Origin: Asterochloris sp. CNOR1
Lineage: Eukaryota > Chlorophyta > Trebouxiophyceae > Trebouxiales > Trebouxiaceae
Assembly (NCBI GenBank): GCA_963969365.1
Contig: OZ017758.1
Coordinates: forward strand, 1,674,001 to 1,738,000
DNA length: 64,000 nt
Direction: 5' to 3'
Under the pieces are notes generated by a model, which saw only the letters and a program-made list of their open reading frames with translations, was not told the DNA's origin and made no database searches. Numbering within the stretch: position 1 is the first letter of the stretch; each line of letters begins with the position of its first letter. Shown here piece after piece: positions 4,850-56,141 of this stretch. The translations under genes were made by a program, and so were the position numbers.

Positions 4850-6725
4850 TTATGTGATACAGGCTTGGCAGTACACGCCCCGCCTGCCTGAGCCCTCAGT
4901 TACATCAGCCTGCAACCCCGCAGCAAACTTATGCATCATCTGGGGCACACTGTTCTCCTCCACCAGCTGCCAGTTGCCATGTCCTTTGAGGTAGGCCTGT
5001 ATGTCCTCAGGCACCCAGCTCTTGAAGCTGTTCTTCAGGTCATGCATCATCTTGGCCTCCTGGCTGTAGTCGTGCATGACTCCATGCTTGAAAGCTGCTC
5101 GCAGGAACATGACCAGCATAATGCTGCCAGAGGCTGATAGTTCTGCAAAGACATTGGAATGTATTCAGGATGTTCAACAGCAGGCAACTACAAAGCCAGC
5201 AGTGTTGTTAGCTGCAGAGCTGGCACACTGCCAGCACTGCTGAAGCCTCACCTCCCATCTCCTTCAGCAGCAGTTCTGAAGCTTCCTGATCTAGGTACAT
5301 CAGCAGGCCTGCAGTGAGTGTGGCGCTGGAGTTTGGTGCTTAAAAGAGCGTTTGGCTAGCCCCCAGGACCATATTTGGCAGGAGGAGGCATCAGGTTCAT
5401 TACATGAGGCTGACCTTCAAGAACCCACATGGTTGGCTCTTCTCTCTTCCACCCTTCAGCTGCCAGCGTTTCATGCCAGCCACTGCAACAGATGAAACCT
5501 GAGGACTGCAAGGCATCAGCTCCAGCCACTTGCAGGCTGTAACAAATAGGAGTTCTGCTGCTTACCGCTGAGACAGGTCACACACGAAGGGATGCCACTG
5601 GGCGACCTGCAGAGGATGGCGTGGTGGCTTGTTGCCAGCTGCAGGCACCTCCACCTGGGCGCCAGCACCCTCCAGCTGTGCACGCTTGGCTGCGATGACA
5701 TCCGCCATGTCACACTCATACCAGTGCACACCTGCATGCCAGACGAGGAGGGTGTCAGCAGGCAGAGAACGAGTCTGTGTGGCAGAATCAGCGAGTGGAT
5801 GGGCTATCTTATGGATTTGGAGAAGCTAATGGACAGCAGTGCCAGGCGCTGCTGAAGGCATGTCAGCAGATGCAGCCGTGTCGAGAGCTGCTGCTTGACA
5901 CCAAGTGCAGGGGATTCAGCACGAGCCAACTAACCTTTGCCGACCTTCAGCCTCCAGGGGCGAGCATCCTGCAGTGCAGTGTACACACGTGAAAAGCAGC
6001 CCTCAGCATGGAGTGCAGCTTGCTGTGCTCAGTCTGTGCGCACCTGCCCAGACCCCAGCACCACAACCTGTTTCACTTGCCCTACAGTGGTGGCGTCCTC
6101 AATTTTGGTGTCAATCCACCTGCATAAGGGCAGCACCATTCTCCAGCGAACGACTGCAGTGCACTGCAACAGGCAGGCAGCACTCGGCCTTACTTGGTTC
6201 GCAGGCCCATGCGTGTGACCTTGAACTTCCGGTTGTTGGCATGCGCAGGCTGGGCTCCATCATTGCCATTGTTTTCACATCTCTGCAGCCAGAGGGAGGG
6301 CAAGTAGGATGGGCGGCAGCATTCCAGCTTTACCAGGTAGCATGCAGCCGGGACTGAGCGCAGGTGGTGGGCCAGACTTGCCCTGGCAGCACTGCGCGCC
6401 TCTGCCATAGCGATTTTCCCTGCCAAAACTTCTGCCAGTGCATCAACAAACAGAGGCTGCTCCTCCTCAGACTCCAATGCCCTATAAGCTGCAGTGGATC
6501 AACAAAAGGCTATTCTCTAGCATGCCTACTGGTGGTGTTAGGTTGACTATATCGAGCAGCACCACCTGCTACTAGTCTGGATGAGAAGGAAACAGGTCCT
6601 GCCAGATTCTCATATCGGCTTTCCTCTGTCCTGCACCTTTTACTCCTCCAGACCCATGCAGCTGCTGCAGCAATGACCACAGTTGCTGCTGCAGCGAGAT
6701 TCTGCTTGTCTACGTATGAATGCAT
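4850..6725 (-). CDS. S-adenosylmethionine-dependent methyltransferase, leucine carboxyl methyltransferase family, membrane-anchored
   Basis: Predicted to transfer a methyl group from S-adenosylmethionine to a carboxyl or hydroxyl group; the substrate is unknown. Read from the high-coordinate end, the start at 6725 gives MHSYVDKQN followed by a hydrophobic Ala/Val-rich segment (about residues 9-25), a likely membrane anchor. Next comes VAAYRALESEEEQPLF (joined across the 6510-6490 intron, phase 1), then GQVKQVVVLGSG, the glycine loop that binds the cofactor (about 6070-6120), DARPWRLKVGK (5930-5965), WYECDMADVIAAKRAQLE (5680-5730), EGLLMYLDQEASELLLKEMG (5250-5310) and LSASGSIMLVMFLRAAFK (5090-5140). 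This order matches the LCM fold of small-molecule methyltransferases such as plant and mycobacterial relatives, rather than the protein phosphatase 2A methylase specifically. It converges on the phosphate carrier and lies 204 bases downstream of the DCN1-like gene. Confidence 0.82.
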
Positions 6726-6928
6726 GTTGAAGATTTGCGAATGGTCCAAAGGTGGCTGGCAGTCTTTGACTGTCAGTCAACTTGATGACATATTTTGGCA
6801 ATGTCAGGTCTTGACAATAGGTGTCAGGAGTACATTGCGCGCTCTGAGCACCAAACAGTCTGGCTGAATCAGATTGTCATGACTTTCAGGGGTCAGACAC
6901 AGCATGCATTTTCAGCCAGCACCCGATT

Positions 6929-9145
6929 TTAGACTGCCGTCTTCCCGCGCTTCCAGTCCACAAATTCATCAATGAGGTAGGGCCATGCACTGTTGTCCTG
7001 CTCCTCAAAATTGCTCAGGTCAGGTCTGACCACCTGTGCACAGTGGCTAGATTCTGTGAGAGCACAGGTTGCTGGTGCCTATGTGCCCTGCATACTTGGC
7101 GTCACAATGCTGGTCATCAGTCCAGCGCCATCAGCACCAGGCAGCAGTGAGTGGTGGCTGCCTATGCGGCAAAGACGTCATGCCTCAATCACTCCTGTTG
7201 GGGCCTCACCTTGGCAAAGTCGAGCAGCTGCATCCACGTGTCCCTGCTGACTGCCCGCCCGTGACGCTTCTGAACAAAGTCAATCCAGTCACCGCCTAGG
7301 GGCCACTGCATTTGGCGGAACAGCAGCTGCCAGACTGCCAGCGCTGTGTCAAGCTGCACACACTTCTGGCCCTTCTCCCGACTGCACGGCAGGCACAGAT
7401 CAGTCTGGCCTCAGCACCATGCAGCAGGCAGCACATGGGCACCTGTGCGTCACAGTCTGCAGACTGAGCGCACACCCATTGTTCCCCAGAGGCAGGCACC
7501 CATCAATGTAGCACTGCATGGGACTGTCCAACTGCAGGCCACCAGAAGCATTGCAGGCTGCTGCCCATTGGCAAACAATCAGCAAGTAGCAGGGGTGTTC
7601 AGCGCACTAAGGCTGATCCCGCACATGGTTCTGATTGTCACCAGAGGCGCCCACCTCCACATGTAAGCAAAGTTGTACACATCCCTGAACGTTGCTTCCA
7701 GTTGTAGCTGGCTCCTGAGGCTGGGCAGCTTGTGCCGGAGCTGGTCTGCAGAGCTGCATTTCAGTTCCTCCATGCCGTTGAAGAACTCTGCAGACGGGCG
7801 GCAGGCCTCATGCTGCAGTGAACAGCCTGGAAGCTGCACATCAGCGAGCCCCATCATGTAGCAGACTAATATCTGGTTGCCGCAGAGCAGTCCAGCAGAC
7901 CCTAGACAGCAGCAGCTGCCGGAGAGGCTGCACCATGCAGTAGACCTCAGGCAGCAGCAGGAGCCCTACATGAAGCCATGGAACAAGCCTCTCACAGCAG
8001 CCAAGGGACCGTGCAAGTTGCTTGCAGTGCCGCCAGCAGCCCAGCATGCAGCAGCTTCACACAGCTCCACCAGCAAGACTTGCCTTCCTTTGTCCACTCA
8101 TACATGCTGCCCGCCTGCAACGCAGCAACCACCTTGCACAGCTGCAGCTCGCAGTGCAACAAACTTGCCAACAACCCTTACTCTGCAGCTGTGAAGCGGC
8201 TTACATGCAGCTGCGGCAGGCCGGGATGCAGCATTGCAGCAGAGTTTGCACAGCAGCAGTTGGGCTGCTCACCTCACAATGAAAGCTAATGACCAGCATG
8301 ACAATGTCTGCGGGATCCACACCCAGGTCCTGGCAGAGCTTTGAGAGCCCTGCATCAGTGCTATCTAATTTACAGCTCCATCAGCGCACAGCAAGAGAGC
8401 AAAGTCCACTGCATCAGCAGCCAATGCCAGTCTGCGATGCAGAGACAGAATGGACAGCGGGGCCCTTTGCCGCACAGCTCCAAGCATGACTGAGTTGCAG
8501 CCAGTCCTGTCTTTATTGCAGGCTTCAGAGAGGGGATCACAATTAAGTGCTGAAAGCCCAAGGCGGAGCCTTGACACTGCAGAGAGCGGCTTTGTGGCAC
8601 ACTGCTTGCCAGGATGCAGCCCCCACCTTCTGCTGAGATTACATCGTCCTCAGGATCCTTGTAGCGCTGCCACATGCTTTGCAAGGCGTTGGTATCAGGC
8701 GCTGAGGTGCTTGCTGTGCTGCCCTCAAATCCCTGCACGGTGGCAACCTCAGCTTGTCAGGCAAGGCTGGAAAAGGCATTGCCTGCACCAGTAACAGAGG
8801 TGCAAAGCATGTGAGCTGCCAGACTTCAATATCCTGCCGGGCCTGCCTGCTGGAAAAAGAAATTGCATGCGGCCTCCACATTCCACTCTGCAGCCTGAAG
8901 ACATTTTGCTGCCTGATCCTGTGAGCCTCCTGCAGTTGAGATGAGAAGTTTCAGTTCTCAGTATTGCAATAAGCAAGTTTTGCCTCGTGAAATAGCAGGT
9001 TCCATGGTCTTCCTTCCAATACACAATCAAGGCAGGATAAATCAGGAACCTGATCAACTACACCGTCCTTATATTGTGCACCTGTAAAGTCTCTAAATTG
9101 CCGGCATGCATCCTTTTGAGTCTTGGTAAGGCGAGCTTTGCCCAT
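6929..9145 (-). CDS. DCN1: DCN1-like protein (cullin neddylation scaffold, E3 for NEDD8)
   Basis: DCN1 proteins bind cullins and the NEDD8-conjugating enzyme UBC12 and promote cullin neddylation, so this should regulate SCF-type ubiquitin ligases. The start at 9145 gives MGKARLTKTQKDACRQFRDF, an N-terminal UBA-like helix. It joins in phase to KCLQAAEWNVEAACNFFFQQ (8840-8910). The PONY domain follows as separate exons: MWQRYKDPEDDVISAEG (8625-8690), GLSKLCQDLGVDPADIVMLV (8290-8350), EFFNGMEELKCSSADQLRHK (7730-7790), FRDVYNFAYMW (7655-7690), LDTALAVWQLLFRQMQWPLG (7295-7355), RHGRAVSRDTWMQLLDFAK (7210-7270) and NSAWPYLIDEFVDWKR (6945-7000) before the stop at 6929. Domain order and the C-terminal Trp-Pro-x-Leu-Ile-Asp-Glu-Phe-Val motif are diagnostic. 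It is divergent from the LamG gene, with 147 bases between start codons. Confidence 0.93.
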
Positions 9146-9292
9146 GCTTTGCAATATCAGCAGTGATGGATTTCGCAAGAAGAGAAGTGATACACAGTTT
9201 GGCACTAGACTATTGTCCAGGCAGGCTGCAGACACCAGTTGATCGCCCTGGGGTGCAATATAAGTCAGTCAGAGCCACAGATCCAACTTCAT
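9146..9292. promoter_or_regulatory. Probable shared promoter of a divergent gene pair
   Basis: Only 147 bases separate the DCN1-like start (9145, minus) from the predicted signal-peptide start of the LamG receptor (9293, plus). Both promoters and 5' untranslated regions must fit here unless one gene has an unseen upstream exon. No specific element was identified. Confidence 0.45.
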
Positions 9293-38700: not shown

Positions 38701-41650
38701 TGAGGCTCCACCATTGAGCACAGATAACAGAAGCAGCAACGTCAGGATACATGGGCGCTTACATTGAGAACTGGTGAAAGCCAGACAGTGCTCCAGCCCT
38801 GAGCAGGACTGCTGGAGCATGGGAGTCAATGAGATCGCAGTCCTCCAGCTGCACGTGCAGGCCAGCATGTGTGAATAGCACAAGAGCAGGCTTGGCAGCT
38901 CACCGCACGTGACACCGCGGCCAGACATTGTGGCGGAACAGCCTCTGCAGCACGCCTGTGGCCTTGCGGAGGCTCCTGAATTGTTTGCGGGCGGAGTAAC
39001 CCCGCCAGTGTCGCTGCACCAAGACGCAGGCTGTGTACAAACTGGCTTCGCGCTGCAGCAGCAGGACACTGTATATCATTGATCTGGATCATGCTCAAAC
39101 TGCCGCAGTGTCCTGAAAGACAGCACAAAAGCCAGGAAGAGGCGCCAAGACAGACAGGCTGGTCGAGCCTGGCTGCACCCTTTACCAGAGCACAGCACCA
39201 CCAGGGGCCATCTCGCTGCTGCAGAGGGGAGCAGGATCATGAGAGTTCTGGTGTAGCAGTGGACACTGTTCACGTGGGCCAGACAATCTAAGGCTTTTCG
39301 GGGAGGGCATGTTGGGCCTCTCCGCTGTGCGGGCTAGGTGTAAGAAGGCCCCTTACAGACGGCCTCCCCGCTGAAAGTTGTCCCCCTTTTCTTCTCCATC
39401 TTGAAGTGAGGCCGGCCAGCCTGACAAGATGCTGGTCAGCCGTGGATACTACTGCAGGCAGCCCAGGCCCACCTGCCGCTGCTTCCGCCTCCGCAGCAGC
39501 ACCTCCCGCAGGTGCGCCACCCGTGAGGCCACCGCCACCACCTTGCCCAGCTCAGCGGCTCGCCAGCGCAGGGCCTCGCGCTCCCGGGCAGTCTCCCGTG
39601 CGGCCTGCAGCTCAGCCTTGAGCAGCTCGGGGCGCTGCGCACTGCAGCGCATCTGCTCCAGGCGCTGCTGCTCCCGGGCAGCGTGCTGCCTGCGCACCCT
39701 ACAGGGGGGCAAACGCTGGTGGCAGAGAGATGTTGAGTGCAGCAGCATCGAGCAGTGCAGGGACGGCAACAAATGCTGCTCGTGGGCAGCGCACTGCTGG
39801 AACGCACAGCAGGGGCACTGAAATTTTGGTCTACAAGGGGAGCACCGAAGCGCTCACAGGCTCTGCTCAAGCAATGGCAGCAGGGGGCCCTGGGCAGCGC
39901 AACCAGTACCGATAGAGGAGGACTTGATAGCCACTTCAGGCCAAAGCCATGCCCTTTCTCTGGAACGTGAGACCGTGCGGCAACTCAAAAGTATTGCAGT
40001 CCTTAGTGCATTGCGCCTGGCAGTTGCCCAGCCAGACCACTGTGAGCCACATGTTCCCAGCCAAGTAGGGCACTCCTCCAAAACAGACTAACCTCTTCAT
40101 GCGCTGGGTCTGCTCTGTGAACCACTGCTCACGGTGCTCCTGGAGCAGCTTGGGCTTCCAGAGTGCAGCCAACCTGGCATTGGCTGCCACAAGGTCCAGG
40201 TGCTGCTGCTTATCTGCAGGCAGCCGGGTGTGCTGAAACCTCTGCTGCTGCAGCATATCTAGTGAGTTGCACAGCTGCCACCATATCCACATGCTGCTGC
40301 TTGACTGCACAAGGACACGCTGGGCTGCGACTCCCGCTGCTGCAAGCGATAAGGAGTCTAGATTGAGGAGACAGGCAGCTTGGCTTGACATACTCTGGCA
40401 CTGCATCTGATCAGGCATCTTGCTCCCCTGCACCCGACGTGCGTACCCTGGACTTGGCGGGAGTGATTGGAAAGCATCAAGACTGGGCCTGACCAGACAC
40501 ACGCATGTGTCCGTCTTGGTCCACAGCAGCCCCACCGTCAGCTGCAAGACCCCTGCTGCAGTGTTCACACCCTGGTCTGAACTGCTGAGCTTGGAGCTGT
40601 GCTTCTGGATCAGGGCTGGATGCAGCATGCATCACATGCCTCTTGTGGCCTGCACCAGGGCCCCCTGCTTGGCATGCATCAGGCAACCCCAAGGATTGCC
40701 CTACTCAGAGTGACTCCTGCTGGGTGGCCTTCCACCAGAAGGGATCTGAGGGACTGCTGTCATGCATCGTGTGTCTGTGCATGCTGACTTCTGGCTGCAG
40801 ATGAGATGCGCACCTGGTGAGGCAGCAGTGCTGCTGTCACCAGGGTTCATGCAATCCAGAGCACTGTGGTCCCGGCTGGTGGATGCACTGCAGGTCTGAC
40901 AGGCCACATGCACGCCTCGGCCAGCAGAGTTGCTGCTCTCAGCAGCAAGCCCCTCTAGTGTGGTGTGCGCACTGTGGTTCTGGCTGGTGTACTTGGAGAT
41001 GCGCTCGTGCAGCAGGGCCTGCGCGTTGGCGTCCATGCGCAGCACGCGCAGCTTCTGATCCACCAGCCTCTGCGTGCGGCCCCGCCCCTGGCCTCCCTGC
41101 AACAGGGCAGACACACACTGCAGTGTCGCCAAGCCAGAATGCATTTTGCCAGCAGCACAGCATCGCCACTGCGTTTGCACCCACCCCTGGGCCAACCCCA
41201 GTGGTGGGCCATCGACGCGCACAGCGAACCCAGGACTGTCAGTGCCCTGCCCACTCAGCCTCTCCTGTTGCAGCAGCTAGCCAGCGGTGCACTGCCTGAC
41301 CATCACCCACAATGCAAGTGAAGCTCTATGCAGACCAGAGCCATTCATGGCACCTGACTTGACCTGCTGGGCCCCGACGGCAGCTGCTGCATGGATGGCA
41401 AGCACCCAGCTGCTCACAGCCCCAATGCCTAACACTGTCGCGGTGAAGACATGTCCAAGGAACTTTCACAGGCAACTGATGTCACAATCATATGCAACCA
41501 CCATCATGCAGGCGCACCTGTGGGTGGAATCCGGCGCCCTGCATCAACAGGCGCCGTGCCCGCACACACTGCTGCAGGGGATGCCGGTGCTGGCTGAGCA
41601 GGGAGAGCCGCGAGGGGCTGCCTCTCAGGTGGTCCTCAGCCTGGGGACGG
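35738..41650 (-). CDS. IQ-motif, coiled-coil protein (5' end unresolved)
   Basis: Probably binds calmodulin or centrin through IQ motifs; the exact family was not recognised. Reading from high to low coordinates, exons include HPLQQCVRARRLLMQGAGF (41525-41640), then in phase QRLVDQKLRVLRMDANAQ (about 40990-41095), LVAANARLAALWKPKLLQEH (40095-40250), and a charged helix with LKAELQAARETAREREALRW (39450-39700). VQRHWRGYSARKQFRSLR (about 38975-39030) is a good IQ motif. DLERSNRFTLAMKDVRIKVL follows at 38130-38310, then a Pro/Gly/Ala-rich disordered exon (37330-37920), a second basic IQ-like helix (ARAFLKLKRRAFVTLLARYW, about 36930-37010), EVIRAAAREKLLEAGKPKAE (36300-36360) and an acidic C-terminus ending at 35738 after TYQPMRISLKDLLSGNWADD. 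Basic helices spaced by coiled coil recall Sfi1-like or ciliary IQ proteins. It converges on NUP160, with 163 bases between stops. Confidence 0.66.
39292..39379. repeat. Imperfect inverted repeat enclosing smaller hairpins
   Basis: The left arm, about 39292-39308 (GGCTTTTCGGGGAGGGC), pairs imperfectly with the right arm 39361-39379 (GGCCTCCCCGCTGAAAGTT). Inside are TGTAAG (39339-39344) facing CTTACA (39352-39357) and CCGC-TGT-GCGG (39322-39332). On the plus strand the right arm is followed by a C run and TTTT. It lies in an intron of the IQ-motif gene. It may be a small structured RNA or a miniature inverted-repeat element; I cannot tell which. Confidence 0.5.
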
Positions 41651-43137
41651 TCCTCGTGGCCCCGCAGCAGAGGCGCGCTGGTGCGCCCATGCAAGGGCCC
41701 ATGCAGCGCTCCTGCATGTGGTGTGGTATGCATGCTGTGCAGCACAGCATGTAGCGCAGGATGCAAAGGTGCGCCGCCAGGCCTGTGCCAGGGCCCATGC
41801 AAAGCGCCTGCTCTGCAGCGTGGCACACTGTTTGGAGACTGGGAAGCCCGGGACCATGTGCAGTCTTTGTATGCAATGTGGCCCGCCCTGTGACATTGGT
41901 GGCAGACAGGTCCGCCACAGGTTCAAGGGCCCGCTGCAGCATGCTCACATGCGTGTGGGGTGGCATGGCGCACTGCTGGCATGCAGGACATGCATGCAGC
42001 TCAGGCCAGCATGTACCCCTTGCAGAGGATCACCATTGTGTGCGTGACCAGCAGGGTCGTGCAGGCGCTGCGCATGGTCAGGCTGGGGGCTGAGGTGCTG
42101 CTGCGAGGCTTCAGTGCTCTGAGCCAGCCCAATGGCAATCTGTGCGGGGCTGTGGTCTTGGCTGGAGCTGGCATGGAGCGGTGGCAGGGGTGTCGTGCTG
42201 TAGAATGCTGCACTCGTGTGGCGGCTGGAGGCGTGCTGCGGCTGATGCTGGCATGCAGGGAGCTGGCTGGCCGCCTGCTGAGGCCCCCAAGGCTGCATTG
42301 CAAGGACCCATTATGGGTGCCAGCATTGAGGAGGTGCGGCTCTTCCAACACAACAAGGGGCCTTACTCACACCACAAGCAACACCTGCTGCAGTGCACAG
42401 TGCACGCAGCTACCTGGGCAGGTGACTCAGTGTTGATCACATCTGCATGATCAATAAGTTCTGCAGGCATAAGAGTTCCAGATGCTTAGCTGGTCTGGGC
42501 ACTGTCTGTGATGCAACAAACATCTCAGCACCCACTGGGCTTCTGGGTGCCTCGGTTTAGCCAACTGACAGGTTGCCTTGTCTGTTCTGGCTGAGCGGAT
42601 TGGAACTGAAAGACAGCTTCCAGGGCCTGTGAGCCCTGAAACATGCTGAGCATGGCCCCTGTTCCCAACACCATCTACAACCTATCCTGCGTGTGTCTCC
42701 CCATCAAGCTTTATTCCATTGCAGTGCCTGCACAGAACGTGCAGAAAGTCTGACGAAAGCGTCTCGACTCCTCTTCTTTCATCACAGACTTCAGTAGACG
42801 TCTTTCGGGCGCAGCAGTCCTGACCTGTCTGAGAAGCATGGCAGACAGCCCAATGGAAAGGCTTTAGAGACAGTATTCAGCAGTAGCCGGCTGGCCCACA
42901 CATAGCAGTGCGCCCCTCTGCCGTTTGCAAGGGAGCACACCAGGATTCCGGATCGCGGTGTGAGTCTTCAGGAATTTTCTGGTCAGGGGCAGATTATGGC
43001 TAAGTGCCAGACAGTGGACTGACACCTGACAGACACTGCCCACCAAGTGATGAGTCGCGTGAAGCACCATATGCAGCTGGTCAAGCCTAACAGAGTGAGC
43101 TGAGCACTGCCTGACTTCCTGCAGGAGTTGAGAGGTC
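41651..43137. other. Region between the IQ-motif gene and topoisomerase I
   Basis: It holds no gene I can name. Minus-strand frames around 41950-42350 could contain further 5' exons of the IQ-motif gene, but none has a clear start or splice pair. The part from about 42450 to 43137 is less GC-rich, has no long frame, and probably holds the divergent promoters and the topoisomerase 5' untranslated region. Confidence 0.4.
41680..41813. repeat. Imperfect tandem duplication, spacing about 96 bases
   Basis: GGGCCCATGCAGCGCTCCTG (from 41695) and GGGCCCATGCAAAGCGCCTG (from 41791) are near copies. Each is preceded by GGTGCGCC (41680 and 41768). The segment also has many ATGCA and GCATGC palindromes, so frames through it on both strands are rich in Met, His and Cys without looking like real protein. 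Confidence 0.6.
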
Positions 43138-46100
43138 ATGGAGACAGTTGCCAAACCCAATAGGAATGCCGCTCTGGAAAGCGATTCAGACGATGACATG
43201 CCACTCTCCGACAGGCTGCAGTCTCCCTCTAAGCCCCTGAACGGGGCCAGGGAAGGTGCCGCCTCGCCAGACAGGGCTGCTCCAGTGCAACCCAAGGTAC
43301 CAGGGGGGCAGCCAGTTCAGGCGGGCGGCGCTGCAGAACCCAGCGGCAATGCAGCTGGTGCCAAGGCCAAGTCTGCTGAGGCTTCAGGGAAGGCTCCGTC
43401 CGAGCCCATCTCAAAGGCAGAGTCGCATGCTGCGGCTGCCAAGCATGCAGGAGCTGCACACGCGGGTCCGAGCAAGGCCAGCGATGGTGCAAAGGCGGGG
43501 CCAAGCAAAGCCATGGAGACCGGGCGAAGCAACACGATTGGTGCCCAGAAGGCTGGCCTCAGCAAGCAAGCTGCAACAGCAGGGCGACCCAGCTCTGCAG
43601 GGGCCAACGGCAAGGCCGCTGGGGCCGCACTTGCAGCCAACGGATCGCTGAAGCGAAAGGCGTCCCCTGTGTCGGACAGCTCAGACTCAGAAGATGATCA
43701 GCCCCTAGGTATGATGCCTGCACCTCTGATTGACGACTGAGCCCTGCTGCTTGCGAGTGGACACGCCTTGCTGCCTGCACATTAGCACGCTGCGGCCTGC
43801 CCCTTGTCTGCCAGACATTCTCACCTCAACAGGTCTGCCCCTGGTTTGCCCGCTGCAAAGCCTTGCTGCCTGCACAATCGCACAGTCGCATGCTGTTATG
43901 CTGACGGCCTTTCTGTCAAGCGATTTGTGACGGAACAGGCCAGGCACAGTCATGACTGTGCTTGACCACTGGCTCTAGCAGACATTTGAGGCTGACTTCC
44001 CTGGCATGCAGCTGCTCGCAAGGCTGCGATGAAGACTCCTGCAAAGAAGCCGCCGGCGAAAAGGCCTCAACCTGCGCAGCCTGCCAAAAAGGGGGCCGGC
44101 GAGGCGCCCAAGCGCAAGCCGCCGGCCAAGAAGCCTGCCAAGCGCAAGCGCAGCTCAGGCAAGTCTGCATGGAGATTCATATTGATTAGCTGGTTTCTGC
44201 CCTCAAAGTTCTCGTGTGCTGGCAGGGGGGCCTGCCAGTCAGCCATGTGCTGGTTCTGACTGTCTGGCAGGGGGGCGGTGTGCCTCTCACTGTCGGCACT
44301 GTAGCCTCTGCCATGCTGGGCCCTTCAGACTGCTGTGGACCAGGGCAGTACAGCTCTTGTGCTTGCTGCAGGCTGGAGCATTGTGGCACTGTGTAGTCAC
44401 AAGTCTAGCGTGCTGCTGGTATGCCTTATTGTTGGTGCGTGCTGCCTGTGGCCGATGGCTGCTGCCCACTGTCTCTGAACTCAGCTGCAGCTTCTCTGAC
44501 TGCAGATGACAGTGAAGATGAGGAGTCCAGTGAAGATGAGGGGCCCAGCAGGGCGGCTGGGGGGGGCCGCCGCAGCAGCACGGCGGGAACACGGAGCAAG
44601 AAGGTGGGCATTGTTCTGAGACCTGCATGGCTGCAGCTGCAGCCACTGGTGTGGTGCAGCAGTCAGCTCAAGCAGCACTATGGGAGCGGCGCAGCAAGGG
44701 GGCGACGGGCAAGCAGCTCTGCCTCAATGCACATCTGCCATCGCATCTAAGGAGACTGTGCAGGAAGTGCATGCCCTAGCGCTTTGGCTAAGGCTGCCCT
44801 GAAGCTGGGGTGAGAGCCCTGCACCAAAATGGCTTGGGCCAAGCAGCACCCTCTGCCGCCTAGTCCCTGACTCCTAGCAGCAGGACATTGATGGCAACAA
44901 TCTGCCTCTGCAACCTAGCCAAGCATACACACGAGCAAGCATTGAGCACCATCTCCACTGGTTCCTGACTTGTGTGCAGGACGTTGATGGCAAGGAGCTA
45001 AAGTGGTTAACGTTGCAGCACTCAGGGGTCCTGTTCCCGCCCGAGTACAAGACCCATGGGGTCAAAATGTTGTATGATGGTGCTCCCGTGGACTTGAATG
45101 TGGCTCAAGAGGAGGTGGCCACCATGGCTGCCAGCATGGTGGAGACTGACTACTTCTCCAAGGACACCTTCCTTAAAAACTTCTGGGAGGGCTTCAAGAA
45201 GGTGGGCGCATCGTGTGGTGCGGCAGTGCGTGTGCCTTGGGGGGCGCTGGCACTGTCTGGGAGCAGGTGGACACTGTCTGGGAGAAGGGAGGCTGTGCCT
45301 TGCTGGGCAAGGGCTGCTTGCTGAGGGCCTGCTGACACAAAATCTGCGGGTCAGAGGAAGGAGGCGCTCACAGCTAATGGCTCTCAGCGCTACTCTTCAG
45401 GACATCCCTGGGACGCTGACTGTCCTTTCCATTGCCTCTCAGGGACAGTGGCTGTGTCATTGCCTGTTGGCGCACCCTTCTATCTGGAGTGCACAGGCTA
45501 TCAAGCCGCGGCTTTGCCCCCTGTGGTGTCCAGTGCGCTGAGGTCACCAGCAAGCAGGTGCTGGGGCCTGGCCACAGATTGAAGTTGCGCAGCACTCTGC
45601 TTTGCCATGCAGGTACTGGGCCCCAGCCACAAGATCAAGTTGCTGGAAAAGTGCGACTTCCGCCCCATCTACGAGCACCTCATGGCTGAGCGGGAAGCCA
45701 AGAAATCTCTGTCCAAGGAGGTGGGCTTTGCAGCAATGTGTTGGCAGTCTTGAAAAGCAGATGTGCAGCTCTGTATCTGGCCTGGGTAGGTTACTAAAGA
45801 AGCCTGGAAGTCTCTGTCCCAGGAGTTGATCTCCAAAAGCTCTGCATCAAATGGGGGCAAACCCCTGACTGAACGCAGTGATTGGCTAAGCTTGACGCTG
45901 GGGAGAAGTTGCCAACCAAGGAGGTGGGCACTGGATGGATACACCTGCACAGCCTCTAGAGGGCGGCAGGCAACTGCCACGATTGCATCCAAGGCGCCGC
46001 GAGCTAAATGTCAGACTGCTGCCTTGCAGCAGCTCATGCCCTTATGTGCCCTGCTACAGGCCTTGCCTTTCTGGTATGCAGTTCAGCAACCCCTCCTGTA

Positions 46101-49100
46101 TCATCCGGCCGGCCTAGTCATCAAAGTGCCCCTGCTGGCTGCTGCAGGACAAGGCGGCGCAGAAGGCAGATAAGGACGCTATGGAGGCAAAATACAAATT
46201 TGCAATGGTGGACGGGCGAAAGGAGCAGGTTTGTGGAGCCAATATTTGCAGTCCTGGGTCTGCCGGCAAGAGTGTCGGCACAGACGCAAGGCTGTGCAGC
46301 AGTGTCATGGGCCAGGCTAAAGATGGTCGAAGGTTTAAGCCATGCAACGGCGGTCGGTAGTATGTGCGCTGCACTGTCATACAGGCTTACTACAGCAGGG
46401 TCCTTGTGAAGCAGGGTACTATGGCCCCAAAGTGCAGGTGCATGGTTCCAGCTGCCTTTGCCTGCCGCTGCAATGATCAGGGGCCCTTTCAAGGCCCCGG
46501 AAATGCGACCTCCTGGCACAGGTGGTCACCTTTCGCACTTGACCATACAGCCTTTGAGGAGTGGGCACTGCCTATCAGTGCCTGTTGTCAGGAGGTGGAG
46601 GTCAAAGCTACCAGTTGCTGATGCCCATTGCTGTGTGTCCAGGTGGGCAACTTTAGGGTAGAGCCGCCAGGCCTGTTCCGGGGGCGGGGAGAGCACCCGA
46701 AGATGGGACGTATCAAACGCCGCATCTACCCCCGGGACATTACTATCAACATCGGTGAGCCAGCCATGCATGATGCTGTTAGCATGACTGGCTGCTGTCT
46801 GGCATTGAGATGTGCTGTGTTCTGGGAGGCCCTGTGTCCAGCGGCCATATAGCCAGCTGTCTGGACTTGTTTGTGTCCCTTCCAGAGGCTATAGGGCCCT
46901 GCATCATGCTGCCTGTCCAATGCTGCAGGTGCTGGGGTCCCCGTTCCAGAACACCCGTATGAGGGCCAGAAGTGGAAGGAGGTCCGCCACGACCGCACGG
47001 TCACCTGGCTGGCCTTCTGGAAGGACCCCATCAGCGACAACCAGTACAAGTATGTATGGCTGGCCGCCAACTCTGCCTTCAAGGCCAGCGCTGATCAGGA
47101 GAAGTACGAGAAGGCGCGCAAGCTCAAGGTTAGCTGAAATCTCTATTTCAGCCATTCCATTGTTGGCATCCGGGGTTGTCTGGAACAGCTTAGTTTGCTC
47201 CAATGCTCAAGGAGGCCTGTGGTGCTGCTGCATGCTTGCTCCAGCGCCAGGTGGCACTTTGTTGTTGCTGTGTTGGCCCCTATCGGCGTGCCATATGACA
47301 CGGCGTGCAGGCCTGAGGTTAGTTGCGGATTCAACAGGGTTTGTTCTCGGCTGGCTGCGGTACATTGCAAGATGCTATGTGTGGGGCATGTTCATGCTTT
47401 GCACAAGGGCTTCCCTGTGTGAGCAGTGCTCTCTGGTGTCCAACATGTCTGGCTCAGTAGTAGCAGAGTGTGTTCCCTGCTGCCGGCCATGCTGCTGTGC
47501 AGCCGTCTCTCAGGCAGCCTGCTCCCTTGACTGGCTGGCACTGCCGCATGATGCTGACCCCTGTGGCTTGGCCTGCTGCAGGGCTTGATTGACAAGATCC
47601 GCAGGGTCTACGAGTCGGACTGGGACAGCAGTGACTACCAGGCTCAGCAGATGGGGGTGGCCATGTACTTTATTGACAAGCTGGCACTCCGTGCGGGGCA
47701 CGAGAAGGAGGAGGATGAAGCTGACACTGTGGGGTGCTGCAACCTCAAGGTGGGCACCCATGTTGCCATGTGCTGCAATACAGACAAATGTAACAGGCGC
47801 AACACTTCTGCACCTACACGTGACATGGGTGGCAGGCTCCAGATCCGGTGGTAGGCTTCTGATGTCTGCTTGCGTGTTACGAGCGCCTTCTGGTGTTGGA
47901 CTCTAAAGCTTGGCGCTGCGCGATACACACTTGCTCAGTGCCACTACATACAATTGCACCAGTGTTTGCAGGAGAGCCGCGGCTGTATGTCACCAGCACT
48001 CGCTGCGCCTGTCCCAGTCAGTCATGCCTGCAGGGTCTGCCCCTGCGGGCCCTGCGTCATCTGAATGCTGAGAGGTGCACAGGCTCACCTCAAGCTTGTT
48101 CTGACCTCGGATCCGTGCTGGGCTGTGCAGGTCAGCAACGTGGAGTGCTTGGAGGGGGATCATATCAGATTTGACTTCCTGGGGAAGGACAGCATCAGAT
48201 ATGAGAACGAGGTGAAGGCCCACCCCAAGGTCTGGAGGCTGGTTGAGAAGTTCTGCAGAAAGGACGGCGGCAACAAAGGTGAGCCCGGGGCGGGAGGCGT
48301 GCGCAGCTGATCAAGGGGCCCACTCTGCAGCAGCGGGGCTTGAGATCTGTTCACTGTCAGCACTCCCAAGACATCCTTGCGGGACAGGCGGTGTTGATGT
48401 GGAGCACTAATCTGTCCAGCGTGGGATAGGAAGTTATGTGCTGGATAGGGGTTTTCATTCTTTTGCTGAGCACTGCTCACGCTGTCCTTGTGTCAACCAG
48501 TGATGACAGTTGTGCCTGCCTGTCTGCAGCGCACTGCTCTGGCATGCTGACTTTGACGCTTGCTCTTGCCAGCTGGTGTGCCTGCCTGCCTACAGATAAG
48601 GAGGAGAACGACCAGCTTTTTGAGACTATGGACGCCAACGATCTGAACAAGCGCATGAAGGACTTCATGCCTGACCTCAGCGTCAAGGTGTTTAGGTGGG
48701 TCTGGGCTGCATGCGGTGCCTAAGTGAGCGGCAGCAAGCACGCGGCACAAGGGCCCTGGGCAAGGCTGTCCTGCATGGACTGGGGAGTAGATCAGCTGCC
48801 CTTGGGCAAACTGCATCTTCATGGTGTTCATAACTGTCTCACCTGATTGCTTCCTGGGGTTGGCTGCCGGCGTGTACAGCAGTATGTCATGTCTAGACTC
48901 GGTGTAAGAGTCTTCAGGCAGCCCTGGGCTGCTATGCCCTGGCAAGCACCAAGAGCAGCAGCCTCCTGTGGACGTCTTTCCTGCACAGCCCAGAACACTG
49001 CTCTTGCTGGCCTGAAATGCCCCCACAATCTGACAAGGTCCCCTCACCTGCCTGTTGGCAGTCTCTTTGTCCTGCCAGTGGTGTCTGTGACGCAAATCAG

Positions 49101-50980
49101 TGCTAGGTTGTCTGTTGGGGGTGCTGTCTGCAATGTGCAGGCCATAACCCAAGCCACTCCCACGGTCCTCTGTTGCAGCACAAGCTCCAGCACATGCACG
49201 ACTGGCTCTGCTCTCCGCAACATGGCAGCACCAGCAGTAACCTTATGGACATGGTGGACCCAAGGGCTGGCTCTGCTGTCCACGCCCTCCGTGCTGGGCG
49301 CACACGCAACAGCTGATGGCCTGGTGTCCACGCCTTTCCAGTATTTGGTGCCCCATTGCCTGCAGGACATACAATGCATCCATTGTCTTGGACAAGCTGC
49401 TGTACGTCCCCAGCGAGAGTGATGTTCTGGATGCCAAGAAGGCAGACTACGACCGGGCCAACAAGGAGGTGGGGGCAGCCACACCAGGGTTTCAGCGGTG
49501 CATGGCCCCCTCATGGGGCTGCACTGAGCACGAAGCCGTCTGCACCAGTCTGTGGCATCGACACTATGTGGGCCAGTACGCAGTCAGCCAGAGCTGTTCA
49601 TTTCAGTCACCTCCTGTATTGTAAGACGCAAATGGTTGGCACCCCTGCTGCGTCCAGCAAGCAGGCGGTAGACAGCAGCAGCACAGCCAACAGCAACGCA
49701 TACAGCTGCCACGTGGCGAACGCCTTGCTTGCCTTGTTGAGGTGGCCATCCACCAGCACAGCTTGCGTGCACCAGGAGCTCCTGCTGAGGCTTCTCACCC
49801 CTGTGTGCAGGTGGCCATCTTGTGCACTCCCCAAGGCAGCGTGCCCATAACCACGCAGTCCAGCTGATCCTGCTGAGCTGGGCTCCCAGTGTGTGCAGGG
49901 GGGCATGCCGTGCCATCAGCATTGGCTCAGGTGGGAGCAAACCCCTGCCTCTCTGCAGGTGGCCATCCTGTGTAATCACCAGCGCAGCGTGCCAAAGGGT
50001 CACGCCAACCAGATGGTCAAGCTGACTGAGAAGATGGAAAAGATGACAGGTGAACTGGAGGACCTGGAGAGGGAACTGGAGGCAGCCAAGAAGGGGAAGA
50101 CGCACACGGCCAGCAAAGTGCAGAATCCTGACAGGTGCGGGGGTATCATCAATCGGTCAGAAAAGGGGAAGTTTCTGGCTGCATGTCCAGCAAGATGGGC
50201 CAAAGTGCCTGCTGTGCAGGCCGACAGTGAGTCTGGCATGGCCTGCATGGCGGCGATAGGGGGCAAGACACCCATGGCCAGCAAGGTGGCCATTGGAGTG
50301 TGCCATCGTTGCTGCCAGCAGCTGCACACCTGGCAGCTTTGTGATGGGGGCCGTGTTGTGCTGCCAGCAACAGTTGGCAGCCTGTGTTGCGTGGCATATC
50401 TTCAGCTGTTGCTGCTGCTCTCTGTATGAACTACCTCCAGGCGTACTGCGCGGACCTGCCAAGCACAGCGTTGCACAGCAGGCTGGCTGCTGGTCCCTGT
50501 CTCCAATCCTGTGCATTTGTGCAGCTTGCATCCACAGAAGGCACCTGCTGACCCCTGTGCCTGCAGCCTCTGCAACAACAGGCACCCTGCCCTGTGCCAA
50601 AGATGCTGGCTGTGCTACAGTCTGCAAATTATGCAATCGGCTGATGTCTAGCATGTCTGCTGTAGCCTTGTGTTTTGCTGCCCTAATCACATCCCCACAC
50701 GGCACTGCTCAAAGCTCACCCCTTTCTGCCTCTTTGCTGCAGCCTGCGCAACAAAATCAGCAGGAAGAAGGAGCAGATATCCAAGGCGGAGATCAATGCA
50801 CAGGTGAAGGACGACCTGAAGACCGTCGCCTTGGGAACGAGTAAGATTAACTATCTGGACCCCCGCATCACAGTGGCCTGGTGCAAGCGCCACGAGGTGC
50901 CCATTGAAAAGGTGTTCAACAAGAGCCTGCTGTCCAAGTTCTTCTGGGCCATGGACTGCGATCCTGAGTTCAAATTCTGA
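43138..50980 (+). CDS. TOP1: DNA topoisomerase I (type IB)
   Basis: Relaxes supercoils in the nucleus by transient single-strand cleavage through a 3'-phosphotyrosine. The start at 43138 gives [20 protein letters not shown]. The N-terminal region is disordered and highly charged, with histone H1-like Lys/Pro/Ala runs ([19 protein letters not shown], 44040-44095) that serve nuclear and DNA localisation. The core starts at 44981 with [20 protein letters not shown] and includes [20 protein letters not shown] (46660-46720). All catalytic residues are present: Arg in [13 protein letters not shown] (codon 47690-47692), Lys in [10 protein letters not shown] (48185-48187), Arg before TYNAS (codon split by the intron 48696-49365), His in [14 protein letters not shown] (49977-49979) and the nucleophile Tyr in [14 protein letters not shown] (50852-50854). 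The linker coiled coil is at 50020-50130. The stop is at 50978-50980. A GC donor at 44159 is required by frame. Introns carry several partial exon copies. Confidence 0.95.
43766..43895 (+). repeat. Imperfect tandem duplication in TOP1 intron 1
   Basis: CCTTGCTGCCTGCACA occurs at 43766 and 43861, 95 bases apart, followed in both by a GCAC and by CTG/GCATGCTG-like sequence. Both copies are intronic, between the exon ending at 43708 and the Lys-rich exon beginning near 44009. Confidence 0.6.
45554..45588 (+). repeat. Degenerate copy of a TOP1 exon start, 55 bases upstream of the real one
   Basis: The acceptor and first codons of the exon at 45609-45643 (GCAG then [10 protein letters not shown]) are mirrored here as GCAG then [10 protein letters not shown]. 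About 80 percent of bases agree by eye. The 55-base offset would shift the frame, so use of this acceptor would not give a normal protein. Confidence 0.68.
45799..45928 (+). repeat. Two degenerate copies of the end of the same TOP1 exon
   Basis: The exon end at 45694-45723 (EAKKSLSKE plus donor) is repeated at 45799-45828 with 25 of 30 bases identical, reading [10 protein letters not shown] second partial copy at 45903-45928 keeps an exact 14-base match across the splice junction (CCAAGGAGGTGGGC). Spacing is about 105 bases each time, as expected from successive tandem duplication. Confidence 0.7.
49740..49855 (+). repeat. Two degenerate copies of the catalytic-His exon of TOP1
   Basis: The exon beginning at 49955 (GCAG then [14 protein letters not shown]) is echoed at 49807-49855 (GCAG then [12 protein letters not shown]), about 80 percent identical over roughly 48 bases including the acceptor. 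A more damaged copy at 49740-49772 keeps GGTGGCCATC and CACCAGCACAGC, with an internal gap of about nine bases. The His codon is lost from the 49807 copy, so it could not encode an active enzyme. Confidence 0.68.
50259..50292 (+). repeat. Degenerate copy of the TOP1 linker exon end
   Basis: The stretch resembles 50093-50125 ([10 protein letters not shown]). Shared landmarks are GGGG, AAGAC, GGCCAGCAA and GTG. It lies in the intron downstream of that exon, about 167 bases away. Confidence 0.55.
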
Positions 50981-51448
50981 ACACTTACACTTGTAGTGGA
51001 ACGTGCCCATCCCTGTGTGCATTGCGATGCACGGCAGGGATTGAAAATGCAATTGTATGTCGTGTTGACACTAATCAAATTGAATGATCTGGCAGGAAGG
51101 TGGCACTGCAGCCATGCCAGGCCAAATGCTGGGACTGACATGGAAGCATGCAGGTCCTCTGCTGCTCAAGGAGGCTTTCGACCGATCCGTGTATTTGTCT
51201 CATAGATGTTCCAGGGGGCAGCCTGACTTCAGATTTGACATCTTCAACACAAGTACAATTTATTTAAGCAACATATTTACTGTCAATCGGGCATCTCAGA
51301 ATCTGATGCGTGGTTCAGCTCTTTGCTAGAGGGCGGCATGGCCACACCATACAGGTGCTGCCCCCTCTTCGATCTTCAGACGATCAGCAAGGAAGTTGGG
51401 TCTCGAGGTCCCTCTCCCCTGGCTGACCTCACTGGGTGCTAGTCCCAC
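50981..51448. other. Intergenic region after topoisomerase I
   Basis: About 470 bases, less GC-rich than the exons, with AT-rich stretches around 51050-51080 and 51240-51300. No gene-like frame is seen. It should hold the TOP1 3' untranslated region and the promoter of the next gene. Confidence 0.4.
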
Positions 51449-54400
51449 ATGGCAGGACCCAGACTGCAGAAGACTGACAGTTTCAAGAGGGGGTTTGCTC
51501 ACAGCCCAAGCTTCAGTAATCATTTTGCCAGCAACCTGCAGAGCTCAGCATCAGCAGACAGCCTTGGCGACGACAGGTGGGTCTCCTGCTGGCATGCTAG
51601 CATTGGTCAGCATTCTCAGAGCGCTGAATGGCCATTTCAACACACTTTGTTGAGGGCTCCAGTCACACGTGCTGCAGCAAGGAGACCAGGGAAAGCAGAC
51701 CCAGCATCTACAGGCGACTATGTCAGATGCTATGGTGAACCAGCCTTGGTGCTTATGCCAATAGTTGCTGTGACAATGCCTGCCTGTCGTTCCAGTTGCT
51801 TGAGGGGCCCCAGCAGCACCACTTACAGGAGCTGCTCATCACAGCCTGCCTTGCGTGAACCCTGCCTGGTCATGCATGCTGGTGCGGCTTGCCTGTCTCC
51901 CTGGATGCCTGTGTGCGTCCTACTTCTCTCTGCAGGTCAAGCGCCTGTGTCACCATCTGCCTAGGCTGCCCCACAGAAGCGACTTGGCTGCGTCATGTTC
52001 CTCAGCATGCTGCTGCACTGGCTCAACATGCCCTCCAGCAGGCTTTGGACCCCGAACAAGGACAGACCACAACTGCCCACGCCCTGCAGGTGGATGTTCC
52101 TGGGCCTGGCCGTGGTCTGCCCAGCCACGCTGGCTCTGGCTGCCGGCCTCCCTGGGGAGCTGCGTGGCATGAGCAGCAACATCGTAAAGCTGCTTGACTT
52201 TGGCAGCCAGCATCCGATCTATGTCCCTTCAAAGGCAAGCGTTTCATGGCATTGGGCGCTTTGTGCAGTTTGCTACTTCACATTTGGAGAGCTACAGGGT
52301 ATGGATAGTGTTCTGGTGAAGCTGCTGGACAGATGGGGTGGCAAGCACCCCTTTTGTGTCCCTAGCCAACAGCCAACACCTTTGTTGCCTGTCTGCATTT
52401 CATTAAGCACTTCGCCAAATTTCCGACACGCGGGGCAGGCAGCATCCCTCCTGAGTCTGCTGGCATCTATCTCTGCTGTCAGTGTCTCGCTGCATGCCTA
52501 TCACAGACAGCACCCTTGTGTGGTCCTCCCTAAGCACGCGCTCCGCTGCATACATCCAGTGCACGCCAGCCATCCGTTGACTGGTGCCGGCGGCAGATCC
52601 GGACCAGGCCAGCAAAAATCTAAAGTTGGATGCATGCTCCGGGTCAACTTGCTTTTCGGTAGCTGGTCTTGAGAATGAGTCAATTGGTGCAGGAGCCTCC
52701 CCCCTGATATAAAAAAGCTGACACTTGAGATGCAAGGGAAGCAGCAATATTCTGCCAGCCATGCTGACAGCCTCAGTGCTGCTTGCCTGCAGGTTGAGAC
52801 CCACCGCAATTACACCCGCTCAGACTACAGCTTGATAAGCTGGCAGCAGGTGCGGTTCAGGTCGTGCCACTGGTCTTGGCAATGCTCCCTATAGTGCGTC
52901 GCAGCTTCTGCCTGCAACCTGCATTTGCAGGCATGCTGATTACACATCTTGTGTGCCCACCCGCAACCCTGGCGTGCGGGGAGCCAGCTCTTAATGGTGC
53001 GCAGCACCCCTCTTGCAGCAGATGACAGCCTCCCACACCTGAGAACCCCTCTTTGGGGAGGCAGCTGGCAGTCTGGCAGCCACCTGCACCCCTGGTGATG
53101 GGTGGCAGTCAACACCTTGTGACAACCACCATGTTGCTGCAGGGCATGCAGAGCCTGTACGAGCACATCATCCGCACCAGCCCGGTTGGCGACATGAGCG
53201 ACCAGACCCTGCAGGTGAGGCTCCCTGAGGGCCCTGTGAGCTGTTGCAAAGGCCCTGTGAGGTTCTCAGAAGAGAGCCCTGTGAGGCACAGCGTCAGCAC
53301 GCTGTCCACTATTGGCCAGTGAAGGCGGGCGGCTGCCCATCATGAGGTGCCTGCATTCCCAGGCGCACACCAGGCTGGCAGGTCATGAAAAAGTGACAGG
53401 TGTGAGGTTGGCGGATACCACAGGGCCAGTGCTTTGCCGCCCCTTCACAAATCTCTGGTGCGGGCTAAGCAGGAGGTGCTCACCCTACAGCTCCCTATGC
53501 CTCCCTGCAGTCCTGACACCTGTTGCTCTGCCCGCAGTTCCATTTTGACGCCGATGTGCGCCGGCGAATGAAGCGTGAGCCATTGCTGCATGAGCAACAT
53601 CAATGCAGCCTGCGTCCCCTCCCAGCTGCGGTTCTGTTGAGTAGGCACAGCATGCCATCATTTGACCCAGTGTCTTGTCCGGTGTTGCAGCTGCTTCCAC
53701 GACAGGTCCTGGCCTGCCTGCCTCCAGGCAGCAGAGCCCCTGACCCCTGCCTGCAGGTTCGCTGGCCAAGAAATTTCGCGCCTGGGCAGTGACCTTCTAC
53801 TTTGCGCTGGCAGGCACACTTTACTTCTTTGACAGCGTGCCGCTGGCACTGGCCATGCTGCAGCTGAACTTGCTCGAATTCTTCATTGCGCTCAGAATAA
53901 AGGCGACGCGGGACGCCCTGGCCCGGACGGTGCAAGCTCTGTCTGCCGCCCAACTGGAGCTGGCTCTTCTGGTGAGCACGACACAGACATGCTTCCAGAC
54001 TCGTGCAGCTGCAGTGGTGCTCTGGGCGTCCTCAGGGTGCTGCTGTCTGCTGTTCGACAGGAGGTGGGTCTCCTGTTGGAGGTCCTTGGGTGTGCCAACC
54101 TCACATGCAGGGCTGCAATGCCCCCGCCAGGGCGCTCTCATCTTTGAGCCACCTGCATCACTGCATCACTGGGATGCAGTGCAGAGCCATGAGCTGGTGC
54201 TGCCCTGTCACATAACAGGCTGCTGCACAGCCAAGACTGTGCTGTGCATGCCTTGGCAGACATCCAACTCCTGGTGAGCCTGGGCTGTGAAGCTGCAGCG
54301 CAGTCCCTCACATCGACACCAGCAAAGTGTCTGCAAACCAGTGTTGTTCTCATTTGATGCTGAGATGCAGCCAAAGGAGCTTCCCTGCCTGGCATGCCAT

Positions 54401-56141
54401 GCAGCACTCACCGCCCAGGGAGCTGTCCTGAGCTCACCAGGAGTTGGGTATCTGCCAAGGCAGGACTGAGGGGTTGCAGGCTCATGGCATGCCCTTTCAC
54501 CACGGGGTGACATCTACTGCTGGCTGCCTGCAGCCTGTCTCCCCATCCCCAAATGATGCCGTCCAGCACCAGCTGTGCCTCCTGAAGATGGACTTCCTCC
54601 GCGAGAGCTGGTGGGTCTGCCTCTTCACATGGTGTGCCATCAAATCAAACTGCAATGCAGGGCTGTGCCCCTGATATGCCATCAGGGATGCACCCCATCC
54701 TACAGTGGCCTCTGCCCTGAGCTCTCAGGGGGCAGCGCTGCTTGGTGTGATAGTATAGGGTGCCCAGAGTTGCCACTCAACTTCTGCTGTGCTAAGGCTT
54801 TACGCTATAGGTCATGATTGCAAGTATTGGCCTGCAGGGAGGATACTCATCTGGGCCAGTCACTGCAGGTGAGCTGCTGAGAGACTTGCTGCCACCGAGT
54901 GGCTTGCAGCACTACACATCCAATCTGACGGATAAGTGCTGTGGCTGCCAGGTTCCTTTCCGTGATGATTTTGCAACCTTGAATCTAAGTGAGGCGCACT
55001 CGTTCTTTTGCTTGAGCTACAGCAGGGCACCTCATTGCTTGCCGCAGTTCCTCAGAGACACGCACAGCTGGAAATTCCCACCTCTTGGCTCTTGGTGCAG
55101 GTCTAGTCCTCAGTCTTGTTGGAGCTGTCTTCTTGAGATCAGTCGAGGTGTTGATGATTGGCGTCTGGCCTGAGCTGCCCAGATTCTGGGTGAGCTGAGC
55201 AGGGGAAGGTCCAAGCTGGCCCCTCCAGCCACACAGTCTAGGGCTTTCAACAGCATGTCTTGTGTGCAGGGGCCTAGGTGCCTGGCACATACTGTCACAC
55301 AGCAAGCCCCGCCGGGTGCTAATCCAGCCAAAAACTTGTGCATCAAAGCACCACCAGCCTGCAGACACCACGTCCCTCTCAGAGCTGCCTGCAATGCTGT
55401 GCTGGGTGCACCCTCAGTCAAAGGATTTTCCTATCCTGTATATAGGTCCCCTGTCTCTGGCGGAGGCACTCCCACCATTGAGCACTCACTCTGCCATGCT
55501 CTGGTGGTTGCCAGGTGGCGCGGTCCTTGGCGGGCAAGGTCAAGCTGCCCAGCTTCAGCAAGCTGTCCATAGCTCGGCGGTGGAGGCGCAGCCCTGCCGA
55601 CGGTGAGGGGCCGCCACCTCCCAGCACAGGGCAGAGTGGCAGTCGGGGCCTCATAACTCAGCGCCTGAGGGAGCACGCAGCTGCAGCAGCAGTGGCTGCA
55701 GTGGCAGCCGCCAATGAGGTCAGGCAGGCTCCCTCCTCCACACCCCCCGACCAGCCCACTGTGCCGGAGCACGAGCCCTTGCTGCCTGACAAGGTGTGGC
55801 CCTGACTTGCCAGGCTGACGCTGCAGGCCGCTCTGAAAGTGGGCAGCTCGGCTGGAGTGCCAGTTGTGGGAGCTGCAGTGCTGTGCTGGGTGCCTGAAGG
55901 AGTGAGTCTCTGCTGGTAGTAGGCATGAGCCCGTGCTGACTGACAAGACCAGGCTGGACAAAGGTCAGCTGTGAAAGCTGCTGGCAGCATCATGTCTGTG
56001 CTGCAGCATCACTTCCCACGCCAAAACAACATTTTATGATTGCAGGACGACTTGGCTGGATCAACACTGAGCAGGAGAAAACCTTACAGCACCGACGCGT
56101 CCATCACCACAGATGACGCCCATTTCGGTCTTGAGCTTTGA
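51449..56141 (+). CDS. Unrecognised membrane protein with a C-terminal dileucine signal
   Basis: Function not recognised. The start at 51449 gives MAGPRLQKTDSFKRGFAHSP, a Ser-rich, probably phosphorylated N-terminus ending at a phase-2 donor near 51577. Further exons I can support are AQHALQQALDPEQGQTTTAH (about 52010-52090), VKLLDFGSQHPIYVPSK (to 52234), THRNYTRSDYSLISWQQ (52795-52850), GMQSLYEHIIRTSPVGDMSD (53143-53215), FHFDADVRRRMK (53538-53574), and AKKFRAWAVTFYFALAGTLY joined to a hydrophobic stretch then EFFIALRIKATRDALARTVQ (53758-53970). A basic exon (AGKVKLPSFSKLSIARRWRR, about 55516-55790) ends in EHEPLLPDK, an acidic dileucine sorting motif. The final exon 56047-56141 ends in DDAHFGLEL. 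The hydrophobic stretch suggests one or two membrane passes and the dileucine suggests vacuolar or endosomal sorting. Exons between 54100 and 55500 are uncertain. Confidence 0.55.
52154..52369 (+). repeat. Tandem duplication of a coding segment, spacing 132 bases, same frame
   Basis: Copy 1 (52154-52234) reads GELRGMSSNIVKLLDF then HPIYVPSK. Copy 2 (from 52286) reads GELQGMDSVLVKLLDR then HPFCVPSQ. About 17 of 27 residues are identical, and the 132-base spacing is exactly 44 codons with no stop between. Copy 1 is followed by a GC donor (AAAG then GCAAGC at 52235). No good donor is visible after copy 2. Confidence 0.66.
53224..53295 (+). repeat. Three copies of GCCCTGTGAG in an intron
   Basis: GCCCTGTGAG recurs three times shortly after the donor at about 53216, with 10-20 bases between copies. 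The unit resembles the donor region (GTGAGGCTCCCTGAGG), so it may derive from it by slippage. Confidence 0.55.

Follow-up and report, generated by a model that had tools for sequence, protein, structure and literature searches.

The closest published phenomenon that we found to the one described here is the exon 'sequence stuttering' of chicken dot chromosomes (PMC12954441). In the available parts of that report, the source of the repeated sequence lies at most one base from an exon border in over 90% of cases, and the phenomenon is concentrated on the dot chromosomes, 3.4% of whose introns are affected. The chicken expansions have a median of 4 and up to 44 copies, vary between individuals and are described there as recent. 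A related case is the potato RdRp gene, in which a tandem genomic duplication crosses an intron-exon boundary; the accessible portions of the same paper also mention an 83-bp duplication inside an intron (PMC4974935). On the side of intron length, the available text of a third study presents border-induced selection in an indel-bias model (PMC9748784).

In a 64-kb stretch of DNA, which was analyzed at its full length and is called the window below, an exon of a TOP1 gene had been seen by the first-pass annotation to be surrounded by decaying copies of its own two ends, and these had been read as local duplication of an exon-intron block followed by decay. That reading is the best supported one and generalizes beyond the exon in question. 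Small tandem duplications across splice junctions, followed by decay, have very probably lengthened introns in many genes of the sampled genome. We hold this proposal with high confidence for the scope that it has: one genome, seen through home-made gene models.

As far as the available parts of PMC12954441 describe it, stuttering resembles the present case in consisting of local direct copies of exon edges, together with splice sites, in the adjacent intron; in both, the coding sequence is intact, the introns are lengthened and the context is GC-rich. What sets it apart from known stuttering is the spread over chromosomes, the apparently low copy number and the decay. Like the duplication in the potato gene, in the portions of PMC4974935 that describe it, the duplicated block here appears to span an acceptor and an exon start, with splice signals inherited from the parental intron; whereas a new intron and added exon sequence arose there, in one gene, an existing intron appears to have become longer here, with the exon unchanged and in many genes. 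Intron gain at AGGT belongs to the same class of mutation, in which duplicated splice motifs leave exon-derived sequence intronic, but it takes place inside an exon at AGGT and not, like the lengthening here, at an existing junction. Border-induced selection shares with our case neutral sequence between conserved segments and the persistence of its length, but the parts of PMC9748784 that were available describe no exon-edge copies. Among the open-licence literature matches listed, none described copies of exon edges in the introns of green algae.

Copies of Exon Edges in the TOP1 Gene

The assembled TOP1 core protein, its exon ends being provisional, matches human TOP1 structures with an E-value of about 1e-142. 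The trained gene finder placed the borders of exon B (Table 1), the exon from which the copies derive, exactly. A copy of its start had been placed 55 bases upstream and two copies of its end downstream, at coordinates that proved correct within a few bases. The start copy is borne out: it takes in the acceptor flank, agrees with 45606-45643 at 29 of 38 positions at an offset of 55 bp, and was matched in score by none of 5000 random draws from 90 introns of other genes. The first end copy likewise stood (25 of 30 positions identical to 45694-45723, offset 105 bp; 0 of 5000 draws from 282 introns of other genes). The second end copy, aligned with gaps to 45683-45726 (score 33), is supported, yet it is weaker than the other two exon B copies, with 35 of 5000 draws from 150 introns of other genes scoring as high; the 14 exact bases that had been noticed across its donor are confirmed (Table 1). 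The shuffled control that had been suggested as a check was also passed, as the whole window holds 15 ungapped local direct repeats with a score of at least 20, against 0 in each of four dinucleotide shuffles.

Two other sources of the copies were considered and rejected. A dispersed repeat family does not account for them: searched against all 56.4 Mb of the genome, with very common words skipped, the 651-base region had no match apart from itself. A second TOP1 gene as donor is rejected because all four PF01028 matches (E ≤0.001) fall at the present TOP1 locus. A search for relatives with a 272-aa TOP1 query in viral and genome contig collections found none.

Other edges of TOP1 have copies as well. 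At the start of exon J the pair reaches into the acceptor flank (49800-49845 with 49948-49993, 83%), and by way of this first copy a possible second one becomes visible inside the pair 49772-49825 and 49860-49913 (score 18). The copy of the end region of exon J halts 14 nt before the junction. The start of exon A belongs to an ungapped pair, 44880-44897 with 44976-44993. Altogether, 5 of 22 adjacent edges of TOP1 have a p value of at most 0.03, exon A start being weakly among them. Two results within the gene count against the duplication reading: one of 22 tests with the wrong polarity reaches p 0.043 (the end of exon F, upstream), and the lowest p among the inverted tests is 0.023, all of these p values being uncorrected for the number of tests. 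A candidate copy of the end of exon H (48887-48932), taken from the ungapped repeats, failed the edge test (p 0.647).

Table 1. Exons, edge copies and a decoy splice site in the TOP1 gene (positions in the window).
Feature	Position	Strand	Remarks
Weak copy of exon A start, in the upstream intron	44884..44897	+	p 0.027, uncorrected for the number of edges tested
Start copy of exon B with acceptor flank, decayed	45551..45588	+	AG intact at 45556-45557
Exon B, 36 codons, source of copies	45613..45720	+	AG/GT borders, phase 0
End copy 1 of exon B, decayed	45799..45828	+	donor GT changed to TT
End copy 2 of exon B, weaker	45883..45929	+	14 exact bases, 45916-45929, over intact donor 45924
Intact decoy donor GTGGGC	45924..45929	+	PWM score 6.67, equal to that of the real donor
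Copy of exon J start (exon J, 49959-50134), 148 bp upstream	49811..49845	+	score 46, 0/300 controls
Possible second copy of exon J start, weak, visible via the first copy	49888..49913	+	
Copy of exon J end region, 168 bp downstream	50261..50288	+	score 36, 0/300 controls

Edge Copies in Many Genes

Is this a peculiarity of one gene? The sample consisted of the window and of 10 kb from each of contigs C1-C18, each sampled at one place, which makes 244 kb in 19 stretches with a sampled GC of 52-59%. Gene models are predictions from sequence, made by a Viterbi gene finder trained on these 244 kb; two of its penalties were set after a first run had yielded 912 mostly short exons. It predicts 10 of the 11 TOP1 exons exactly, a score that is non-independent because of these penalties and because TOP1 sites seeded the splice profiles. 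It also fuses some neighboring genes: the TOP1 model spans 41581-55905, and one predicted protein of stretch L016 carries two unrelated Pfam families, a sign of two joined genes.

The edge test covered 361 introns, contributed by 44 of the 48 genes that passed a length filter. Exon edges of up to 45 nt were used as probes and aligned to introns, with a threshold score of at least 32. In the adjacent introns, copies of exon ends were found downstream in 19 of 361 tests and copies of exon starts upstream in 25 of 361, where random introns of other genes predict 0.7 per column. With the wrong polarity the counts fall to 2 of 260 and 1 of 270, and with inverted probes to 1 of 361 and 2 of 361. The polarity contrast, 44/722 against 3/530 (Fisher p 3e-8), may partly reflect distance, because the wrong-polarity probes are more distant from the intron by one exon. 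Another comparison is with non-adjacent introns of the same gene, and here too copies are far commoner in the adjacent introns, as in stuttering (44/722 edges against 14/7608).

Edge copies are peculiar neither to exon B nor to TOP1: they are present in 43 of the 361 introns, 23 of the 44 genes and 14 of the 19 sampled stretches. This spread over stretches with the GC range given above shows no restriction to small GC-rich chromosomes and sets the present case apart from the chicken one in the available parts of PMC12954441, although the two were scored differently and their percentages are not directly comparable. Copy number appears to be a further difference from that account, a second copy (score of at least 30) being found at only 9 of 44 edges and the copies being decayed.

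Ten predicted proteins were picked from the 23 genes that carry edge copies, and all of them match Pfam families, namely TIP49, JAB, HSP70, AMP-binding, ABC membrane, Plus-3, squalene/phytoene synthase, mitochondrial carrier, amino-acid transporter and beta-galactosidase small chain. The TIP49/RuvB-like match (Pfam E 2e-164) comes from a full-length minus-strand gene at 3317-9289 of stretch L015, which has edge copies in five introns, the most among the 23 genes.

Anatomy and Decay of the Copies

Whole-exon probes (exons of at least 120 nt, 428 exon-intron pairs, score 34) locate the source of the copies. Of 92 matches, 39 lie within 4 nt of a junction, an exon-border source such as stuttering has; the remaining 53 roughly equal the whole yield of the random-intron control (60), and the excess is therefore junction-anchored. 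Likewise, 43 of the 55 copies with a score of at least 30 come within 3 nt of the junction. Among these junction-reaching copies, GT is retained in 9 of 17 ends and AG in 13 of 26 starts, counts that do not separate selection against decoys from copies that never crossed the junction.

Do the copies continue into the intron? Similarity extends at least 15 nt beyond the junction in 22 of 43 copies, compared with 26% when flanks of foreign genes are used (p 4e-4), and it reaches 6 nt beyond it in 31 of 43, compared with 50% for control flanks; the test is a modest one, as control flanks often extend by chance. For the intronic remainder of the unit, residual similarity (p ≤0.025) was recognized in 13 of the 53 cases open to the test. 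This fits a decay in which both intron halves drift while the exon is held, and not every copy is thereby proven tandem: some, such as an L015 copy at a spacing of 529 bp and end copy 1 of TOP1, have no visible continuation past the junction.

The identity between copy and exon is about 80%, and 28 of 55 copies are spaced 80-130 bp from their source, the median being 110. Differences amount to 15.5, 13.9 and 21.5% at codon positions 1, 2 and 3, respectively, a pattern that fits a neutral copy together with synonymous drift of a constrained exon, not a coding copy. The distance between copy and source is divisible by 3 in 15 of 55 junction copies as against 12 of 14 exon-exon pairs, which indicates that duplications within exons are frame-filtered and that junction copies need no frame. 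Neither the frame nor the coding constraint that mutually exclusive or alternative exons should keep is kept here.

Introns with copies are also longer (median 490 bp for 43 introns) than those without (251.5 bp for 318), and the number of copies per kb of intron peaks in the classes of 400-700 bp; both are as expected if duplication lengthened introns. A copy that fills its intron to within 25 bp was seen in just 2 of 44 cases, and the copies sit a median of 349.5 bp from the far intron end, which favors growth of existing introns over intron gain.

Local Direct Repeats in the Sampled Genome

The edge copies belong to a wider population of local direct repeats. In the 244 kb there are 156 ungapped direct pairs 20-500 bp apart with a score of at least 18, compared with 1.6 in dinucleotide shuffles and with 3 at control offsets of 2000-2480 bp. 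Only 7 local pairs are inverted, and an origin by inverted copying or foldback is rejected on this count. No direct pairs at this score were found in 2 of 18 stretches (L002 and L014). Spacings of non-redundant repeats cluster mainly at 80-129 bp (55 of 145); a further 15 of 145 form a minor group at 260-289 bp.

Direct orientation and short spacing are thus what the repeats display, and a head-to-tail arrangement is seen for some pairs only. In these less decayed pairs the repeat length is near or above the spacing, as in one of L008 (spacing 119 bp, length 121, 88%) and one of L013 (spacing 68 bp, length 108, 99%). Bases in detectable local pairs make up 7.4% of intron and 7.6% of exon sequence, compared with 0.8 and 0.6%, respectively, after shuffling. 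The intron figure is below most of the chicken range in the available parts of PMC12954441, but it was measured differently and the copies here are decayed.

Two places stand out among the sampled stretches. At 545-720 of L013, almost perfect repeats of a 68-bp unit lie at a predicted exon-intron border, with 108 bases at 99% at a distance of one unit and 40 bases at 100% two units apart; this is apparently among the youngest sampled events. At 6198-6987 of L012, in and beside a predicted coding region, there are long duplications that are spaced 387-403 bp apart and share 78-91% identity.

Proposed Mechanism and Alternative Explanations

From the properties of the copies we infer a tandem-duplication event, a filter at splicing and neutral decay, in the following order. 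Small direct tandem duplications, with a spacing mostly of about 80-130 bp, would arise genome-wide. One that happened to span a splice junction would leave the gene with two acceptors or two donors. The spliceosome would keep the site beside the intact exon, so that the mRNA would be unaltered and the spare exon edge would turn intronic. The result would be a start copy upstream or an end copy downstream, in an intron longer by one unit, and the spare copy would then decay neutrally while the exon stays constant. That starts are copied upstream and ends downstream would follow from blocks that appear to span splice junctions, and the exon side would be recognizable longest because selection fixes one of its two partners, whereas in the intron part both drift. 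As a guess, the duplications themselves could come from staggered breaks or nicks that are filled in and joined.

Several other explanations deserve weighing. Could the copies be functional, as alternative exon ends or as decoys under selection to regulate splicing, in TOP1 and in other genes? The TOP1 copies look exon-like when translated and one decoy donor is intact and equals the real donor in strength (Table 1), but the divergence at codon positions 1 and 2, the distances that ignore frame and the lack of GT or AG in 21 of 43 junction-reaching copies are at odds with such a role, and use of either TOP1 decoy with a surviving dinucleotide would lead to an early stop. We therefore consider a function unlikely.

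Slightly less probable still is that the copies are scars of intron birth, that is, that the introns arose when exonic AGGT segments were duplicated in tandem (Rogers model). By reasoning, this model likewise places copies of starts upstream or copies of ends downstream, and the available parts of PMC3443670 treat tandem genomic duplication as a recognized route of intron gain. However, an intron gained in this way should be made up of the copy, and neither the length of the host introns nor the distance of the copies from the far intron end agrees with this, only the two copies mentioned above nearly filling their intron. We place at the same low level the idea that exon edges were copied without tandem duplication, by short-jump template switching or RNA-templated repair. 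Several copies do stop at the junction and many intron parts have no residual similarity, as such copying would produce; against it stand the direct orientation, the survival of splice dinucleotides in 22 of the 43 copies that reach the junction, the flank similarity above control and those pairs whose repeat length equals or exceeds their spacing. Hardly credible at all is chance in a genome rich in TGCAG-like words, which would make exon edges resemble nearby intron: the whole-exon probes at score 34 do have a control rate of 14% and end copy 2 of TOP1 is sometimes equalled by random draws, but the random-intron and non-adjacent-intron comparisons, with inverted and wrong-polarity columns near zero, refute it as a general account.

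If junction-spanning duplication followed by decay is accepted, what does it tell us about introns? Intron lengthening in transposon-poor genomes is difficult to follow, since intron sequence decays until it can no longer be recognized. Duplications that span a junction outlast purely intronic ones in visibility, since exon edges serve as fixed references, and similar scars in many genes look like a general record of intron growth in the sampled genome. How fast introns grew, in what unit size and how long ago could in this way become measurable from a single genome. A bolder claim, which we advance tentatively as a real possibility, is that junction-spanning duplication with a preferred unit near 100 bp is a main engine of intron growth across the whole of this GC-rich, algal-looking genome and that stuttering is one end of a general process, not a peculiarity of birds. 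Fossils of exon edges would then be an internal clock of intron growth, with the exon fixed, the copy neutral and an outgroup unnecessary.

Decoy Splice Sites

The copies had also been said to leave decoy splice sites beside the TOP1 gene. This holds clearly for the donor at 45924 only, whose score (Table 1) lies above the 99th percentile of intronic GT donors (5.99); splicing there would add 203 nt and run into a stop after 10 codons. At 45558 the acceptor copy still has an AG, yet it is weak (score 3.2, with 9.5 for the real acceptor), and its use would add 55 nt and shift the frame to a stop within the exon. The donor copy at 45826 is dead, having lost its GT.

Edge copies leave decoy splice sites that are able to mislead gene annotation. 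At its first training, the gene finder ended exon J (predicted as 49959-50285) not at 50134 but at a donor at 50285, inside a decayed copy.
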